A stretch of 64,000 nucleotides of DNA from Alphaproteobacteria bacterium (lineage in GTDB: Bacteria; Pseudomonadota; Alphaproteobacteria; JANQMY01): contig JANQPL010000005.1 in NCBI GenBank assembly GCA_028289425.1, forward strand, positions 1 to 64,000, written 5' to 3'. Each line of letters starts with the position of its first letter. The stretch's first letter is position 1. Below are positions 139 to 7,442 of the stretch, piece after piece. The notes beneath the pieces are model-generated. The model did not search any database, had not been told where the DNA came from, and worked only from the letters and a program-made list of their open reading frames with translations. The position numbers were made by a program, and so were the translations under genes.

Positions 139-756
139 TTATTTGGCTGCCAACCGTGCCCGGATGAGCGTTTTGAATTCATCCGGGTACAGCATTTTCA
201 TCTCATCGTACTGCGCCTTGCCGAACATCTGCTTCAGAGTCGGTTCGGACACCAAGAAATAGTTCACGGCGCCGAGCAACTGATAGACCATCGACAGCAA
301 GGCCACTTCGCTCTTGTATTCTTGCGCCGGAACCCGGCGGGCCAAGGCCACCAACCCATCTAGGAACGGTTTGAGATACCAAGTGCCCGCATGCTTGGCC
401 CGTCGCTTGTTGTCCAGCAATTCGCGCATGATGAGCTGAGTACTTTGCGGGTCTCGGATCCCGTCCTGACATAGGCCAAGAAGAACATTCTCCAGCTGAG
501 TTTGCGGCTCCCCCGCCTCCGCCTGTGCGGCGATGATCGACCCAATCATGCGCTCCGAAATCTGTTGGAGCACTTCACCGTACAGTTTTTCTTTCGTACC
601 GAAATGGTGGAGCAGCGCCTGTTTGGTAAGGCCGAGCGCGTCGGCAATGCTGGCGATACTCGTGCCGTAAAACCCTTTTTCGGCAAACTGCCGCCTGGCT
701 TCCTCGATAAATAGGTCTCGTGTATCGCGGCTCACAGATCTTATCTTTCTTACCAT
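139..756 (-). CDS. TetR family transcriptional regulator
   Basis: A 205-residue protein with an N-terminal TetR helix-turn-helix, roughly residues 15-60 (FAEKGFYGTSIASIADALGL, then LLHHFGTKEKLY), and a divergent ligand-binding C-terminal half. It diverges from the Rieske oxygenase operon, and the intergenic region holds three copies of a palindrome of the form TACC-N4-GGTA, one overlapping this gene's own start codon. Autorepression and repression of the operon are therefore likely (inference). I see no convincing Shine-Dalgarno before the ATG, so the transcript may be leaderless. The inducer is unknown, possibly an aromatic or acyl-CoA intermediate of the adjacent pathway. Confidence 0.9.
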   Translation of the reverse strand: MVRKIRSVSRDTRDLFIEEARRQFAEKGFYGTSIASIADALGLTKQALLHHFGTKEKLYGEVLQQISERMIGSIIAAQAEAGEPQTQLENVLLGLCQDGIRDPQSTQLIMRELLDNKRRAKHAGTWYLKPFLDGLVALARRVPAQEYKSEVALLSMVYQLLGAVNYFLVSEPTLKQMFGKAQYDEMKMLYPDEFKTLIRARLAAK

Positions 757-764
757 CTGGTAGG
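749..764. promoter_or_regulatory. Candidate TetR operator, copy 1
   Basis: CTTACCATCTGGTAGG is a 16-base imperfect palindrome matching the two better copies at 836-851 and 862-877. It covers the start codon of the leftward TetR gene (ATG at 756-754), a position suited to autorepression. Confidence 0.65.
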
Positions 765-828
765 CAAAAGACTATGTCTGCGATCTTGCTGCGTCAAGGT
801 AATATAATCGAAACAGAGAAAATATTCC

Positions 829-877
829 TTGACGACCTACCAATTGGTAAGTACAACGAAGCTTACCAATTGGTAGG
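829..877 (+). promoter_or_regulatory. Promoter of the Rieske operon with two embedded operators
   Basis: A -35-like TTGACG (829-834) and a -10-like TACAAC (852-857) are separated by 17 bases. The palindrome CCTACCAATTGGTAAG (836-851) fills that spacer almost exactly. A second copy in mirror orientation, CTTACCAATTGGTAGG (862-877), follows at about the transcription start. Bound repressor would block polymerase at both steps. The next gene starts at 894 behind a GGAG (883-886). Confidence 0.7.
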
Positions 878-893
878 CTATTGGAGACTTGTG

Positions 894-2051
894 ATGGACC
901 GCAAAACAGAGCTTGAACTCCTTGATGAACTTTTGTCGCTGAAGGCGGAGAAATCGTTCTTTCTGGACGACGCACCAACTGTCTCTCCCATTGAACGCTA
1001 CATCTGCCAAAACCAATTTGAGCGCGAGCAGGCAGCGCTGTTTCGACAGTTGCCCCACATGGTGGCCCATTCGAGCGAACTGCCGGGGCCGGGCTCGTTT
1101 CTGAAGCGGGACGTGGCCGGATTGCCGGTGCTGCTCACCCGGGACGAAGACGGCGAGGTGCATGCGTTCCTAAATGTCTGCCGCCACCGGGGAACACAAT
1201 TGGTTTCGGACGAAACCGGGTGCCAGCGGCGGTTTTCGTGCCCCTATCACGCTTGGACCTGGAACAATCGCGGCGAGCTCTTGGCCATTCCCCATCAAGA
1301 CAAAGGCTTTCCAGGGTTCGACAAATCCGACTTCGGCCTAAAACGGCTCGCGTGCACGGAGCGCTATGGATGGATTTGGGTCCAGCCGGTTGCGAACAGT
1401 GCAATGGATGTGGACGAACATCTGGGCGACCTGGCCAAGGACTTCCATTGGCTGAAGGCGGATGACTTAGAAGTTTTCGCCGCGGACGATCATGTGTGGA
1501 ACGTCAACTGGAAGATTCTCATCGAAGGCGGGATTGAGTCCTATCACTTCAAGATCGCGCACAAAAACACCATAGGGCCGTATTTCCAAGACAATCTGTC
1601 GAGCTATCAGCTATTCGGCAAACATTTGCGGTCCGTCTTGCCGCGCACCGCATTGGATGAGCTTCAGACCCAATCGCGTGATCTGTGGAACATCCGCACA
1701 CACACCAACCTTATCTATTCGGTTTTTCCGTCGAGCCAATTGCTGGTTCAGGAAGATCACATTGTATGGATTCAGACCATTCCCCTATCGCCCGACAAAA
1801 CCCGTCTGCGCCTGCACACGCTGTCGCCGAAAGCGACCGGCACGGATGCGGACATGCCCGCGGCGCACTGGAAAAGGAACCACGAAATCACCCGCTCTAC
1901 CTTGACGGAGGATTTCGAGATTGGCGAAAGCATCCAGCGCGGGCTGCGCAGCGGTGCCAACACGCATCTGACATTCGGCCGATATGAAGGAGCGCTCGAC
2001 ACCTTCAACCGGATCATTGACGAACACATCGCTCAAGAAAGGACGAACTGA
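894..2051 (+). CDS. Rieske [2Fe-2S] non-heme iron oxygenase, alpha subunit
   Basis: A 385-residue ring-hydroxylating-type oxygenase. The Rieske centre is clear: Cys96-x-His98 and Cys116-x2-His119. The C-terminal catalytic domain carries an ESYHFKIAH motif (His about 218 and 223) for mononuclear Fe(II), with a downstream acidic stretch EDFEIGES that may supply the Asp/Glu ligand. The start at 894 has GGAG 7 bases upstream; the longer frame from 720 runs through the operators and is rejected. It leads an operon with a crotonase 1 base after its stop, two kappa-GST-like proteins and a GST. No ferredoxin or reductase is encoded nearby, so electrons must come from elsewhere. The substrate is unknown. 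Confidence 0.93.
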   Translation: MDRKTELELLDELLSLKAEKSFFLDDAPTVSPIERYICQNQFEREQAALFRQLPHMVAHSSELPGPGSFLKRDVAGLPVLLTRDEDGEVHAFLNVCRHRGTQLVSDETGCQRRFSCPYHAWTWNNRGELLAIPHQDKGFPGFDKSDFGLKRLACTERYGWIWVQPVANSAMDVDEHLGDLAKDFHWLKADDLEVFAADDHVWNVNWKILIEGGIESYHFKIAHKNTIGPYFQDNLSSYQLFGKHLRSVLPRTALDELQTQSRDLWNIRTHTNLIYSVFPSSQLLVQEDHIVWIQTIPLSPDKTRLRLHTLSPKATGTDADMPAAHWKRNHEITRSTLTEDFEIGESIQRGLRSGANTHLTFGRYEGALDTFNRIIDEHIAQERTN

Positions 2052-2052
2052 C

Positions 2053-2934
2053 ATGGCGCAAGACGTTGTGAAATACCAAACCGACGGCGCGATCGCGACC
2101 ATCACCCTCAACCGGCCGGAAAAATACAACACGCTGCGGCGTGAAGTGATCCAAGGATTGAGCAACGGTTTGCGCCAGGCCAATCAGGACGACGCCATTA
2201 AGGTGATCATTCTGGAAGGGGCCGGCAACAGTTTTTGCGGCGGCTTCGATTTTTCCGGTGGGCTCGAACACTACGAGTCGATCAAGGAAGAAAACTATGA
2301 TCCCGGCATGGATGTCATGGGCGTCACCAATCAATACACGACCTATATCCAAACCTTCATGGGGCTGTGGCGCGGGTCGAAGCCGACGATCGCCAAGGTG
2401 CACGGCTATTGTGTCGGCGGTGGATCGGAATTGGCGCTGTGCGCGGACTTGGTCATCGCATCCGATGACGCCCGCTTCGGCACCCCCTACTCCCGTGTGT
2501 GGGGATGCCATCTGACGGGCATGTGGGTCTATCGCTTAGGGCTCGCCAAGGCCAAATACTATGCCCTGACGGGCGAATGGATCAGCGGCAAAGAAGCTGC
2601 GGAGATTGAGCTCATCAATTTTTCGTATCCGTTGGAAGAGCTGGATCAGCGCGTACAAGACCTCGCCGATAAGCTCGCGCAGATTCCCTTGACCCAGCTC
2701 ATCTCCATGAAGCTCATTGTCAATCAGGCCTATGACAATATGGGATTGCAGGGCACGCAAACTTTAGGGCCGATCCTGGACGGCATCATGCGCAACACGC
2801 CGGAGGGCCGCGACTTCGTTCGCGTTACCCAGGCGGAAGGTGTAAAAGGAGCGGTCACCCGGCGCGACGGACCGTTTGGCGATTACAGCCAAGGCCCGCT
2901 CGATGAACAACCGCGCCGGCGCAGCAACATCTGA
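2053..2934 (+). CDS. Crotonase (enoyl-CoA hydratase/isomerase) family protein
   Basis: A 293-residue crotonase. The oxyanion-hole segments are visible as SFCGGFDF near residue 60 and CVGGGSELAL near residue 120. The first catalytic Glu of classical enoyl-CoA hydratase is kept (SELAL), but the second is not: the GxPE motif reads GTPYSRVWG. Classical 2-enoyl hydration is therefore doubtful, and an isomerase, hydrolase or lyase role on a CoA ester is possible. The start ATG comes 1 base after the Rieske stop, indicating translational coupling. It is most like the crotonase at 24373, with which it shares RVWG and a matching C-terminal region. Confidence 0.92.
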   Translation: MAQDVVKYQTDGAIATITLNRPEKYNTLRREVIQGLSNGLRQANQDDAIKVIILEGAGNSFCGGFDFSGGLEHYESIKEENYDPGMDVMGVTNQYTTYIQTFMGLWRGSKPTIAKVHGYCVGGGSELALCADLVIASDDARFGTPYSRVWGCHLTGMWVYRLGLAKAKYYALTGEWISGKEAAEIELINFSYPLEELDQRVQDLADKLAQIPLTQLISMKLIVNQAYDNMGLQGTQTLGPILDGIMRNTPEGRDFVRVTQAEGVKGAVTRRDGPFGDYSQGPLDEQPRRRSNI

Positions 2935-2946
2935 GGTCGCAACAAT

Positions 2947-3618
2947 ATGATGAAGGCTTTGGAAAGCGACGCACCTCTCATCGTTTATGTGGACGTGAAA
3001 AGCCCCTATGCCTTTATCGCGATCAAACCGACGCTTGCTCTTGAACGCCGGCTGGGCGTGCAGTTCGACTGGCGGCCACTCACCCTCGACATCCCGAGCT
3101 ACCTCGGTTCCGCGCGCAAAACAAAAGGCAACGTCGTCGAAAGCAGCCGCAGCCCACGGCAATGGCAAGTCATCAGGTATGCCTACAAAGATGCGCGGCG
3201 CTATGCCGAACGCCAGGGGCTTGTGTTGAAGGGAACGGAGAAGATTTGGGAGTCGTCAATCGCAAACATCGGCATTCTGTGGGTCGTTCAAAACGCCCGC
3301 GACCGGCTGGCGGACTATTTCGCGGCGGTCTACCCGCCCTTTTGGCGGCGTGAGTTGGACATCGAAGATGTCAACGTCGTGGCTGCGTGCTTGGAGCAAG
3401 CTGGTGTGAGTGCAGACGGGTTCGATGCATTTCAATCCGGTGACGGCCGTGAACTCCATGACAATCTGCAAGCCCAACTGCATCCGGCGGGTATTTTCGG
3501 CGTCCCCACCTACGTGTTCGAGGGCGAATTCCTTTTCGGCCGGGAGCACTTGCCTTACGTGGAATGGCATTTGCGGGGCCGTGAAGGTCCTGCGCCGGAC
3601 ATCGCATACGTCCTATGA
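2947..3618 (+). CDS. Kappa-class GST / 2-hydroxychromene-2-carboxylate isomerase-like protein, copy 1
   Basis: A 223-residue DsbA-fold protein. The N-terminal strand-helix reads VDVKSPYAFIAIKPTLAL, with Ser in the place where kappa GSTs and NahD-type isomerases activate or bind glutathione. A cis-Pro loop GVPTYV is followed by FLFGREHLPYVEW near the C-terminus, matching the usual FFGxDR block. There is no CxxC, so it is not a disulfide oxidoreductase. Its stop overlaps the start of the paralogue (ATGA at 3615-3618). Family knowledge suggests glutathione-dependent isomerisation of an aromatic-pathway intermediate, or conjugation; the true substrate is unknown. Confidence 0.85.
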   Translation: MMKALESDAPLIVYVDVKSPYAFIAIKPTLALERRLGVQFDWRPLTLDIPSYLGSARKTKGNVVESSRSPRQWQVIRYAYKDARRYAERQGLVLKGTEKIWESSIANIGILWVVQNARDRLADYFAAVYPPFWRRELDIEDVNVVAACLEQAGVSADGFDAFQSGDGRELHDNLQAQLHPAGIFGVPTYVFEGEFLFGREHLPYVEWHLRGREGPAPDIAYVL

Positions 3619-4193
3619 TTACGATCTACACAGACTTTAAATCACCCGCCGCTTATTTGGCACTGAAACCAACGCTTGCGCTTCTTAAGGAGTTCGGCGT
3701 CGATTGCAAATGGCTTCCCTACACCTACAACGCCAAACAAGAAATCGTGCCGCCGCAGAATCCGAACGAAACCAAGACGGAGACCCATTTCCGTATCCGT
3801 GCAAAGCTCCGGAGGGAAACGCATCTGCGTTATGCGGGTGTTCAGAACACGCCGATGACGTTTCCGAATGTTCCCGGCAGTACCGATATCGCCCTCGCCG
3901 CCCTGCTGGCCGTGGAACGCAACCCGATCCCGTTCGTTGAAGCCGCCTTTAAGTCCTATTGGGTCGATCAGGCGGATCTCAACGATGCCCAAACCGTGTT
4001 GGAACTTATGAATGCTCATGGCCATGCGGTTTCTGCCGAAGATCTCGGGGAAGCCCTGGAGAAACTGCCCGCACACCAGTTGGCGGCGGAAGAAGCCGGC
4101 ATTGTGGATGCGCCGGCCTATGTGATCGACGATCAGATCTTCATCGGCCGGGAACACCTGCCTTGGATCCGGTCTATTCTCAAGGAAAAATAG
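3615..4193 (+). CDS. Kappa-class GST / 2-hydroxychromene-2-carboxylate isomerase-like protein, copy 2
   Basis: A 192-residue DsbA-fold paralogue of the preceding protein, coupled by an ATGA overlap. It has YTDFKSPAAYLALKPTLAL at the N-terminus with the Ser retained, and FIGREHLPW at the C-terminus. The cis-Pro loop is altered (DAPAYV against GVPTYV), and the Tyr after Ser-Pro is Ala here. The two copies share the KPTLAL and GREHLP blocks but differ elsewhere, so this is an old duplication. They may form a heteromer or act on successive intermediates (inference). Confidence 0.83.
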   Translation: MITIYTDFKSPAAYLALKPTLALLKEFGVDCKWLPYTYNAKQEIVPPQNPNETKTETHFRIRAKLRRETHLRYAGVQNTPMTFPNVPGSTDIALAALLAVERNPIPFVEAAFKSYWVDQADLNDAQTVLELMNAHGHAVSAEDLGEALEKLPAHQLAAEEAGIVDAPAYVIDDQIFIGREHLPWIRSILKEK

Positions 4194-4208
4194 AAAGGGA
4201 AATGCCGC

Positions 4209-4946
4209 ATGGCCTTGGAAATTTGGACCTCCCCCACGCCGAATGGCTGGAAAGTCACCATCATGATCGAAGAGCTGCGTGAAGCAGGGGTCGACCTTCC
4301 GGATATCGACGTGCGCATCATTGATCTGATGAAAGGCGAGCAGTTCGAAGACGACTTCACGGAACGAAACCTCAATCAAAAAATTCCTGTACTGAAGGAT
4401 GGTAACCGATGCATCCCGGAAAGCGGCGCCATTCTGGAATATCTAGCGGAGAAATTTCCAAGTCCGCTGCTACCGCTCAATGAACGTAAATGGGATGTGT
4501 TGCCGTGGGTGTACTGGCAAATGGCCAATCTGGGGCCGGTCTTCGGCAATAAGCTTAGTTATACGCGCTACATGGACGACATTGACCCGGTCAAAAAAGA
4601 ACACCCCTTAGAGCGCTTTAACAATGAAGCGCTGCGCCTAGTTTCGGTGTTCGATAAAAAGCTCGGTGACGATCCCTATCTGTGCGGCGACACTTTCACC
4701 ATCGCCGACATCGCCTCTTACCCCTGGCTGCGCGGTTACAAATGGAGCAAGGTGGACATCACGACACGCCCGCGCGTGAAAGAATGGGTCGACCGGGTGC
4801 GTGCCCGGCCCGCCGTGGAGCGCGGCCTTGCCTACGGAGTGCCCAAAGACGAGATCGATAGTTGGAGTAAAGAACGCCGCGCCAATTACCGCCAAAGCGG
4901 CAGCTCCATCGCGGCTAATCAGAGCCTCAAAGACAGCATCCAATAA
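4209..4946 (+). CDS. Glutathione S-transferase, YfcG/Ure2p-like
   Basis: A 245-residue cytosolic GST with an N-terminal thioredoxin-like domain (WTSPTPNGWKVTIMIEEL, then NQKIPVLKDG and the glutathione-binding PESGAILEYLAEKF) and an all-helical C-terminal domain (FTIADIASYPWL). TSPTPNG matches the Thr/Asn active site typical of the YfcG/Ure2p group. It is the last gene of the Rieske operon, 15 bases after the kappa-GST pair, giving three glutathione-binding proteins in one transcript. A stem-loop follows at 4947-4978. Confidence 0.92.
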   Translation: MALEIWTSPTPNGWKVTIMIEELREAGVDLPDIDVRIIDLMKGEQFEDDFTERNLNQKIPVLKDGNRCIPESGAILEYLAEKFPSPLLPLNERKWDVLPWVYWQMANLGPVFGNKLSYTRYMDDIDPVKKEHPLERFNNEALRLVSVFDKKLGDDPYLCGDTFTIADIASYPWLRGYKWSKVDITTRPRVKEWVDRVRARPAVERGLAYGVPKDEIDSWSKERRANYRQSGSSIAANQSLKDSIQ

Positions 4947-4999: not shown

Positions 5000-6184
5000 T
5001 TAAGCGACTTCGAACAATCCGGCAGCCCCCATGCCGCCGCCGATGCACATGGTGACTACGACTTTCTTGGCACCGCGGCGTTTGCCCTCAATGAGCGCGT
5101 GGCCGACCAAACGCGAACCGGTCATGCCAAATGGATGGCCGACGGAGATCGAGCCACCATTCACATTGAGCTTCTCGTAATCGATGCCGAGCGTGTCGGC
5201 CGAATAGATCACCTGGCTCGCGAATGCTTCGTTGAGCTCCCACAGATCGATGTCGTCGACTTTGAGATTGTGGCGCTCCAGCAAGCGCGGCACGGCGAAG
5301 ACAGGGCCGATGCCCATTTCGTCGGGCTTGCAGCCGGCAACGGCAAAGCCCTTGAAGATGCCTAGTGGGTTGAGGCCACGCTTTTCCGCTTCCTTGGATT
5401 CCATGACAACACAGGCCGAGGCGCCATCGGAAAGTTGGCTGGCGTTGCCCGCGGTGATGAAGTTGCCCTCGCCGCGCACAGGTTCCAACCCGGCTAGGCC
5501 TTCCATGGTGGTGTTCGGACGGTTGCATTCGTCTTTAGTGACAACATAGTCCTCGATGGTGATATCGCCGGTCTCTTTGTTCTTGACCGCCATCTTGGTT
5601 TCCATCGGGACGATTTCGTCTTTGAATTTTTCCGCCTGCTGAGCAGCCGCCGTCCGCCGCTGGCTTTCCAGTGAGTATTCGTCTTGCCGTTCGCGGGACA
5701 CATTGTAACGCTGTGCCACAATATCCGCCGTGTCGATCATGGGGATCCAAATATCCGGATACATGCTTTCCAGTTTCTCGGAACGCACCACGTCGCCCTG
5801 AGGCGCGCCGCGGCCCATCAGCGAGATAGATTCAACGCCGCCACCAATCACGATTGGGGCTTCGTCGACGATTACCCGCTGGGCCGCCATGGCGATTGTT
5901 TGCAGACCTGACGAGCAGAAGCGATTGACCGTCGTGCCGGACGTGGTGACTGGGCACCCGGCAACCAATGCGGCGTTCCGGGCCACGTTCGGGCCGCTGC
6001 CCGTGTCGGGACCGGCAGAGCCGAAGATCACGTCTTCCACTTCTTCCGGATCGATCTTGGCGCGCTCAATCGCGTGCTTGATGGTATGGGCGGCCATGTC
6101 CACGCCTGGGGTCTGGTTGAACCCACCCCGGTGAGACTTGGCAAGGCCCGTCCGTGCCGTGGAAACAATGACGGCTTCTCTCAT
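5000..6184 (-). CDS. Thiolase (acetyl-CoA acyltransferase), copy A
   Basis: A 394-residue thiolase with all three active-site blocks: the nucleophile Cys in [10 protein letters not shown] near residue 90, NEAFAS with GHPFGMTG near 350, and CIGGGMG at the end. The start is [12 protein letters not shown] at 6184; the longer frame to 6334 only reads into the intergenic region and the upstream paralogue. It is probably co-transcribed with the near-identical thiolase upstream (gap of 76 bases). Thiolytic release of acetyl- or propionyl-CoA would suit the final step of the pathway begun by the convergent Rieske operon (inference). Confidence 0.95.
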
Positions 6185-6260
6185 TCTTTTTCTCCTTCCA
6201 GATGTTGAGGTGGGCGGCACGGCATCGCGTGCCGCCGTTTTGTGGCAATTGTAGTTTTTG

Positions 6261-7442
6261 TTAGACGACTTCGAATAAGCCGGCGGCGCCCATGCCACCG
6301 CCGATGCACATGGTGACCACCACGTTTTTGGCACCGCGCCGCTTGCCTTCGATGAGGATATGGCCGGTCAGACGCGAACCAGTCATGCCATAGGGATGGC
6401 CCACAGAAATCGAGCCACCATTCACGTTGAGCTTTTCGTGGTCGATGCCCAGCTTGTCGGTGCAATAAAGCAGTTGGCTTGCAAAAGCCTCATTGAGCTC
6501 CCAAAGGTCAATGTCATCAACGGTAAGGCCCGTGCGCTCCAACAGGCGGGGGACCGCATAGACGGGGCCAATGCCCATCTCATCCGGTTCGCAACCGGCA
6601 ACCGCAAATCCTTTAAAGATGCCTATAGGCTCAATGTTGCGCTTGGCAGCTTCGCCCGCTTCCATCAACACACAGGCCGAGGCACCGTCAGACAACTGAC
6701 TAGCGTTACCCGCGGTGATGAAGTGTTCTTCGCCGCGCACCGGCGCAAGGCCCGCAAGGCCTTCCAATGTGGTGTTCGGGCGATTGCATTCGTCTTTGGT
6801 CACCGTATAGGGCTGCATGGACGTTTCACCGGATTCTTTGTCCGTGACCGCCATAATCGTTTCCATGGGAACGATTTCGTCGTCGAATTTGCCACCCTGC
6901 TGGGCCGCCGCCGTGCGGCGCTGGCTTTCCAAAGAGTATTCGTCCTGACGCTCCCGCGAGATCTTATACCGGCCGGCGACAATGTCCGCGGTTTCGATCA
7001 TGGGCATCCAAAGCGCCGGGCAGCTTTCCATAAGCTTGTCTTCGGTGATGTTGTTGACGTTAATATTCGCTTGGGTGAGCGAAATGGATTCAACGCCACC
7101 GGCAACCGCAATGGGCACATCTTCATTCAGAATGCGGCCCGCGGCCATCGCAACAGTCTGGAGACCGGAAGAACAGAAGCGGTTGACGGTTGTGCCCGAT
7201 GTGGTGACCGGACAGCCCGCCCAAATCGCCGACAGGCGCGCCACATTCTGGCCGGTCGCCCCTTCCGGCAACGCGCAGCCCATTAACACATCTTCAACGT
7301 CAGCGGGCTCGACCCCCGCTTTTGCGATGGCATGCTTGACCGCATGCCCGGCCATCGCCGCCCCGTGGGTATTGTTGAAACCACCCCGAAAGGACTTAGC
7401 GAGCCCCGTCCGGGCGGTCGATACGACGACAGCCTCTCTCAT
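6261..7442 (-). CDS. Thiolase (acetyl-CoA acyltransferase), copy B
   Basis: A 393-residue thiolase with the same catalytic blocks as copy A ([25 protein letters not shown]). Long stretches are identical to copy A, including the middle [20 protein letters not shown] block, while the region around residues 115-135, near the usual substrate-loop position, differs strongly. That pattern fits a duplication followed by change in substrate range. It is first in the leftward pair. No operator-like palindrome is obvious upstream. Confidence 0.95.

Follow-up and report, generated by a model that had tools for sequence, protein, structure and literature searches.

The locus at the start of this contig raises the question of what three copies of one 16-base palindrome are doing between a tetR gene and the operon that diverges from it, and which protein they serve. 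The window, by which we mean the whole 64,000-nucleotide stretch of DNA analysed, was compared with related loci in other genomes. The features on which the argument turns are listed here.

139–735, minus strand: tetR, probable coding region, 198 amino acids, GTG start (TetR_N, E 8e-14)
749–764, no strand: O1, predicted operator upstream of the probable tetR start
769–797, minus strand: possible tetR promoter TTGACG-17-TAGTCT, weak and picked out by eye
829–857, plus strand: predicted operon promoter TTGACG-17-TACAAC
836–851, no strand: O2, predicted operator in the spacer between −35 and −10
862–877, no strand: O3, predicted operator over the predicted transcription start
894–2051, plus strand: Rieske non-haem iron oxygenase alpha subunit, first operon gene (Ring_hydroxyl_A, E 1e-28; Rieske, E 1e-19)
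2053–2934, plus strand: crotonase/enoyl-CoA hydratase family protein (ECH_1; NF009125, 393 bits against a cut-off of 347)
2947–3618 and 3615–4193, plus strand: two DsbA-like thioredoxin-fold proteins (DSBA, E 8e-18 and 3e-10)
4209–4946, plus strand: glutathione S-transferase-like protein, probable last operon gene (GST_N and GST_C)

The three near-identical palindromes reported by the initial annotation between tetR and the divergent operon are all present where it placed them: O1 reads CTTACCATCTGGTAGG, O2 CCTACCAATTGGTAAG and O3 CTTACCAATTGGTAGG, and the distances it gave between centres, 87 bases from O1 to O2 and 26 bases from O2 to O3, are correct. O2 and O3 are reverse complements of each other, and O1 differs from O3 only in the centre. 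None of the three is a perfect 16-base palindrome, with O2 and O3 pairing at 7 of 8 positions and O1, counted by eye, at 6 of 8, while all three match every one of the 12 arm positions of the operator consensus CYTACC-RNNY-GGTARG.

The neighbouring gene encodes a clear member of the TetR/AcrR family. Its TetR_N helix-turn-helix (PF00440) scores 51.6 bits against a Pfam cut-off of 24, its AlphaFold2 model (mean pLDDT 90.7) has ten helices in an all-helical TetR-like fold, and the top 50 Foldseek matches of that model all carry titles or names of TetR-type regulators. Predicted palindromic operators, conserved among relatives, lie at both its own gene and its putative target, the arrangement looked for in a TetR/AcrR regulator. 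None of 18 listed NCBIfam models reaches its cut-off, the best being the SACE_7040 family at 51.5 bits against 250. The initial annotation extended tetR to an ATG at 754–756, partly within the variable centre of O1, and read this site as covering the repressor's start codon, a claim that the relatives do not support. In 11 of 20 orthologous loci an in-frame start falls precisely on residue 8 of the window TetR (GTG, 733–735), and a stop at residue 7 in L010 leaves residue 8 as the start, whereas a start exactly at residue 1 occurs, besides the window, in L007 alone. Translation therefore probably begins at GTG 735 rather than at the ATG, which would leave O1 upstream of the start codon; the choice is probable and not certain because neither candidate in the window is preceded by a strong ribosome-binding site.

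On the operon side, TTGACG (829–834) and TACAAC (852–857) are 17 bases apart, and O2 occupies 16 of the 17. The initial annotation's statement that the second site fills the spacer of a promoter thus holds, and the same placement recurs in 17 of 20 loci, where the promoter site begins 0–1 base after TTGACN. We take 829–857 as the putative operon promoter on this conserved arrangement. Its −10 matches at only 4 of 6 positions, and a strict sigma-70 scan of 700–920 reported neither this promoter, TACAAC being without the final T that the scan demands, nor the possible tetR promoter at 769–797. From tight spacing, the Rieske, crotonase, DsbA-like and GST-like genes downstream appear to form one operon.

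Relatives of the TetR were drawn from 96 genomes, 385 genomes of the same class, 369 genomes of the class of Spongiibacter and 24 species-collection loci. Twenty context loci were defined by an unbroken TetR frame divergent from the nearest recognised Rieske (12 loci) or crotonase (8 loci) gene, with repeat copies of one place counted once; they include kin (L041/L042 and L043/L046) and are not 20 independent events. Their TetR proteins are 32–68% identical to that of the window. Under a single scoring rule all 20 loci carry the motif. Of the 42 sites, 34 are perfect over the 12 arm positions, four match 11 and four match 10, and the centre has the form R..Y in 39. Under the same rule only four of 32 control TetR loci, among them the near-duplicate pairs L048/L049 and L055/L057, have a site, a single one of 10/12 in each case. 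A counterpart of O2 at the promoter is kept in all 20 loci, imperfect in some, and a second or third promoter site, as O3 is here, in 16; L046 and L092 have a single site each. TTGAC is missing from the expected place in L009.

Several places were left out of the 20. These are L023, where tetR is a pseudogene; L073 (TetR 36% identical), with neither the compared partner genes nor a site; L077 (TetR 30%), with no partner; and L013/L076, L014/L079 (each pair one place) and L078 (TetR 33–36%), in which a Rieske gene 37–42% identical lies on the same strand and the sites are of CCGACC/CCAACC type. L013, L014, L073 and L077 served among the 32 controls, while L078 is in neither list; its site would score 10/12, like that of L014. 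None of the plasmid records encodes a relative of this TetR at E 1e-20.

Two loci bear on selection at the sites. Spongiibacter thalassae and Sinimarinibacterium flocculans (L041/L042, ~2715–4725) share a tetR-Rieske pair that is 97.4% identical over 2,011 bases, and 17 of the 93 bases between their start codons differ. The differences spare the arms (0 of 24) and fall in the centres (3 of 8) and elsewhere (14 of 61), so that the arms contrast with 17 of 69 changes in the other intergenic bases (Fisher p 0.0035). Together with a tyrosine-recombinase gene (467–1453) that lies nearby in L042, this suggests recent horizontal transfer. In G066 (L023, G066:C90, ~1500–2120) the tetR match is interrupted by stops, the adjoining Rieske gene is still 61% identical over 233 residues, to the end of the locus, and the promoter region keeps TTGACA while the site has decayed to CTTAATGATCGGCAAG. 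This single case is what loss of the repressor would predict.

What the genomes show directly is that the sites exist, where they lie, that they are conserved alongside this TetR and that elsewhere they are nearly absent. The original proposal, in which the adjacent TetR uses these palindromes as its operators at a divergent promoter, draws support from the presence of the motif in all 20 context loci. We consider it very probable that the three are operators of the TetR encoded at 139–735 on the minus strand, acting by occlusion and autorepression on one operon. Without inducer, TetR dimer would occupy O2, in the −35/−10 spacer of the operon promoter, as well as O3, over the predicted transcription start, so keeping RNA polymerase off and the Rieske, crotonase, DsbA-like and GST-like genes silent. 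O1, lying where the tetR transcript should begin, would give negative autoregulation. Binding, repression, the promoter positions and autoregulation are inferred from this arrangement of sites; release would come from a small molecule, plausibly the pathway substrate or a CoA-thioester intermediate, although the kind of inducer is speculative.

Alternatives to operators of this TetR were weighed against the same data. Chance repetition of a short word, a reading of negligible probability for which we found no support, predicts 0.49 occurrences in the window of TACCANNTGGTA with at most one mismatch, against three found, all exact and all within 751–875. Across the 5.42-Mb genome TACCANNTGGTA occurs in five places, three of them here and the other two inside mechanical ORFs, and a genome-wide scan, the kind of check that the initial annotation had proposed, finds the 12 arm positions, CYTACCNNNNGGTARG (CYTACC-N4-GGTARG), in three places, all at this locus. 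With the motif also in 20 of 20 context loci, chance is excluded as the source of the three copies. A looser pattern, YTACCRNNYGGTAR, was considered as a sign of a wider regulon and rejected, since five places in the genome match it, three of them here, compared with 11 that match its reversed form; one of its off-locus places, on C19, is inside a mechanical ORF and the other is on C3. It is very improbable that a different DNA-binding protein, with its gene elsewhere, uses the sites and that tetR only adjoins them, even though TetR genes are numerous in the genome (31 matches in the TetR search). Across alpha- and gammaproteobacteria the motif accompanies this TetR together with its partner genes, it has decayed where this tetR is interrupted, and it is nearly confined to the locus. 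Of 30 exact matches in 18 genomes (G066 and the genomes of 17 of the 20 loci), 29 are found here; G066 and G102 have none. The locus of the single off-locus match (G104:C80, L068) is without a TetR match, and the site itself, judged by eye, seems to lie in coding sequence. The same 18 genomes contain 29 matches to the pattern read backwards; match counts of about 30 are thus ordinary, and their concentration at one locus is not. A motif-first search of the 385 genomes for the paired motif found 10 genomes, in six of which the pair is at this locus (present in eight of the set), and the reversed pair matched none of the 385. The other four of the ten belong to one genus, g38, and speak for another protein. 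L081–L084 (G175, G272, G038 and G349; one genus) have a TTACCG(A/G)(T/C)CGGTAA-type pair at comparable spacing, which in L081 and L083 lies between a different TetR and a divergent reductase-like gene (NmrA-like by eye). Similar operators probably serve at least one other TetR, and with a very similar pair beside a different TetR, the motif by itself is not enough to identify the protein that it serves.

Some TetR proteins activate transcription, and the TetR could in principle be an activator of the operon, a reading slightly less probable still than that of a foreign binding protein; the sites occupy the promoter spacer and the predicted start of transcription, which are positions of occlusion, and TTGACN is kept. 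More weight, while still improbable, attaches to a cooperative or looping array, in which dimers on O2 and O3 would touch at 26 bp and O1 would be bridged across the intergenic DNA, for which the initial annotation considered the spacing suited. Three strong sites within 129 bases, two or three promoter sites in 16 of 20 loci, and the retention of O1 in L007, the nearest relative, where the next site is 75 bp away, are what such an array would show. The spacing speaks against it: the centres of 17 promoter pairs are 19–29 bp apart (mean 24.7), with a helical-phase resultant of 0.36, a spread ill-suited to fixed same-face contact between dimers and fitting separate occlusion of promoter elements. 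An O1-like site near the tetR start is present in five of six loci with a long intergenic region (L046 being the exception) and in none of 14 compact loci, which have none at or before the reference tetR start (our rule for a ‘distant’ site demands more than 60 bp to the next site, so its Fisher value is biased and is given no weight). Outside the window these O1 counterparts match at 11/12 in L007 and at 10/12, weakly, in L010, L038 and L043, and the distance to the O2 equivalent varies over the five loci (87, 75, 111, 103 and 98 bp). We down-weight looping for this variable spacing and for the compact loci without a distant site. It is this distribution, long intergenic regions as against compact ones, that leads us to read O1 as a putative autoregulatory operator; in compact loci one pair of sites can cover both promoters, and autorepression explains where O1 occurs more simply than looping does.

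As to the pathway, the Rieske and crotonase proteins matched several generic relatives in family and PDB searches, and no substrate emerged. The crotonase is 73–86% identical in the eight loci where it adjoins tetR. Among ten downstream or flanking frames of orthologues, five have family matches (GST, crotonase, P450, PhyH and integrase) and five have none, some of which are probably not genes. Beyond the operon end in the window, two adjacent thiolase genes, acetyl-CoA acyltransferase-like, run toward it on the minus strand (5000–7442). At L007/L036 (G001:C379), a metagenome assembly, only the ends of the Rieske gene seem by eye to be left between promoter and crotonase, with tetR and all three operators kept. 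In L045 (2772–3883) the Rieske match is in two overlapping pieces behind a promoter with three perfect sites, and the split suggests a frameshift or an assembly error.

Through these comparisons, what began as a palindrome noticed by eye has become a defined operator motif, to which a probable repressor can be assigned and, in many proteobacteria, a predicted one-operon regulon. On balance we favour the view that this is an uncharacterised TetR subfamily with a one-operon regulon, whose very specific operator is fixed behind the −35 across alpha- and gammaproteobacteria and guards a Rieske/crotonase pathway that its inducer would reveal. Knowledge of the inducer should tell which substrate the Rieske/crotonase operon breaks down. 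Combining one repressor site in the promoter spacer with another for autoregulation is an ordinary architecture. This particular repressor seems to have had no earlier study: literature searches with literal operator strings, whose coverage leaves subscription journals largely outside, found no description of the operator, and the system is not described in the available text of the TetR literature searched, PMC7810876, PMC6651687, PMC7022988 and PMC8700777 included.

Of proteins with known structure, the best sequence match of the TetR is PfmR (TTHB023) of Thermus thermophilus HB8 (3vpr, E 6e-12, residues 11–81). According to the accessible text of PMC7022988, PfmR has a measured operator, CTGACCGATCGGTCAG, bound at about 2 nM, and a natural site, CTTACCGACCGGTTGG, bound at 0.4 nM. 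As given there, the PfmR operator and the window motif have an ACC-N4-GGT core in common, and differ in the outer arms (CTG/CAG in PfmR against CYT/ARG here). PfmR controls a regulon of fatty-acid genes at several promoters by the same account, whereas the window motif is nearly restricted to one locus. Good alignment is limited to the DNA-binding part, and in the fold comparison PfmR comes 9th to 21st rather than first. The idea that the window TetR is PfmR itself was discarded, the match being limited to residues 11–81 and the outer arms being different. A parallel by arrangement is Rv3160c of Mycobacterium tuberculosis, described in the available part of PMC7810876 as a TetR repressor of the adjacent Rieske-type oxygenase Rv3161c through inverted repeats at the promoter. 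Both systems place a tetR gene beside a Rieske oxygenase with inverted repeats at the promoter; as far as that text goes, Rv3160c lies in the same operon as its oxygenase, with a single nested 12-bp plus 8-bp repeat as operator, whereas the window genes are divergent and have three separate sites. Another such parallel is EdcR of Caenibius tardaugens, a TetR repressor of estrogen degradation, which in the portion of PMC8700777 available is likewise encoded divergently from a catabolic operon; the promoters of that operon carry palindromes, and its own promoter a weaker one. Its proposed operator there, TnnCnnTACnAnTnGTAnnGnnA, is different in sequence and overlaps the −10 box, whereas O2 of the window lies in the spacer.
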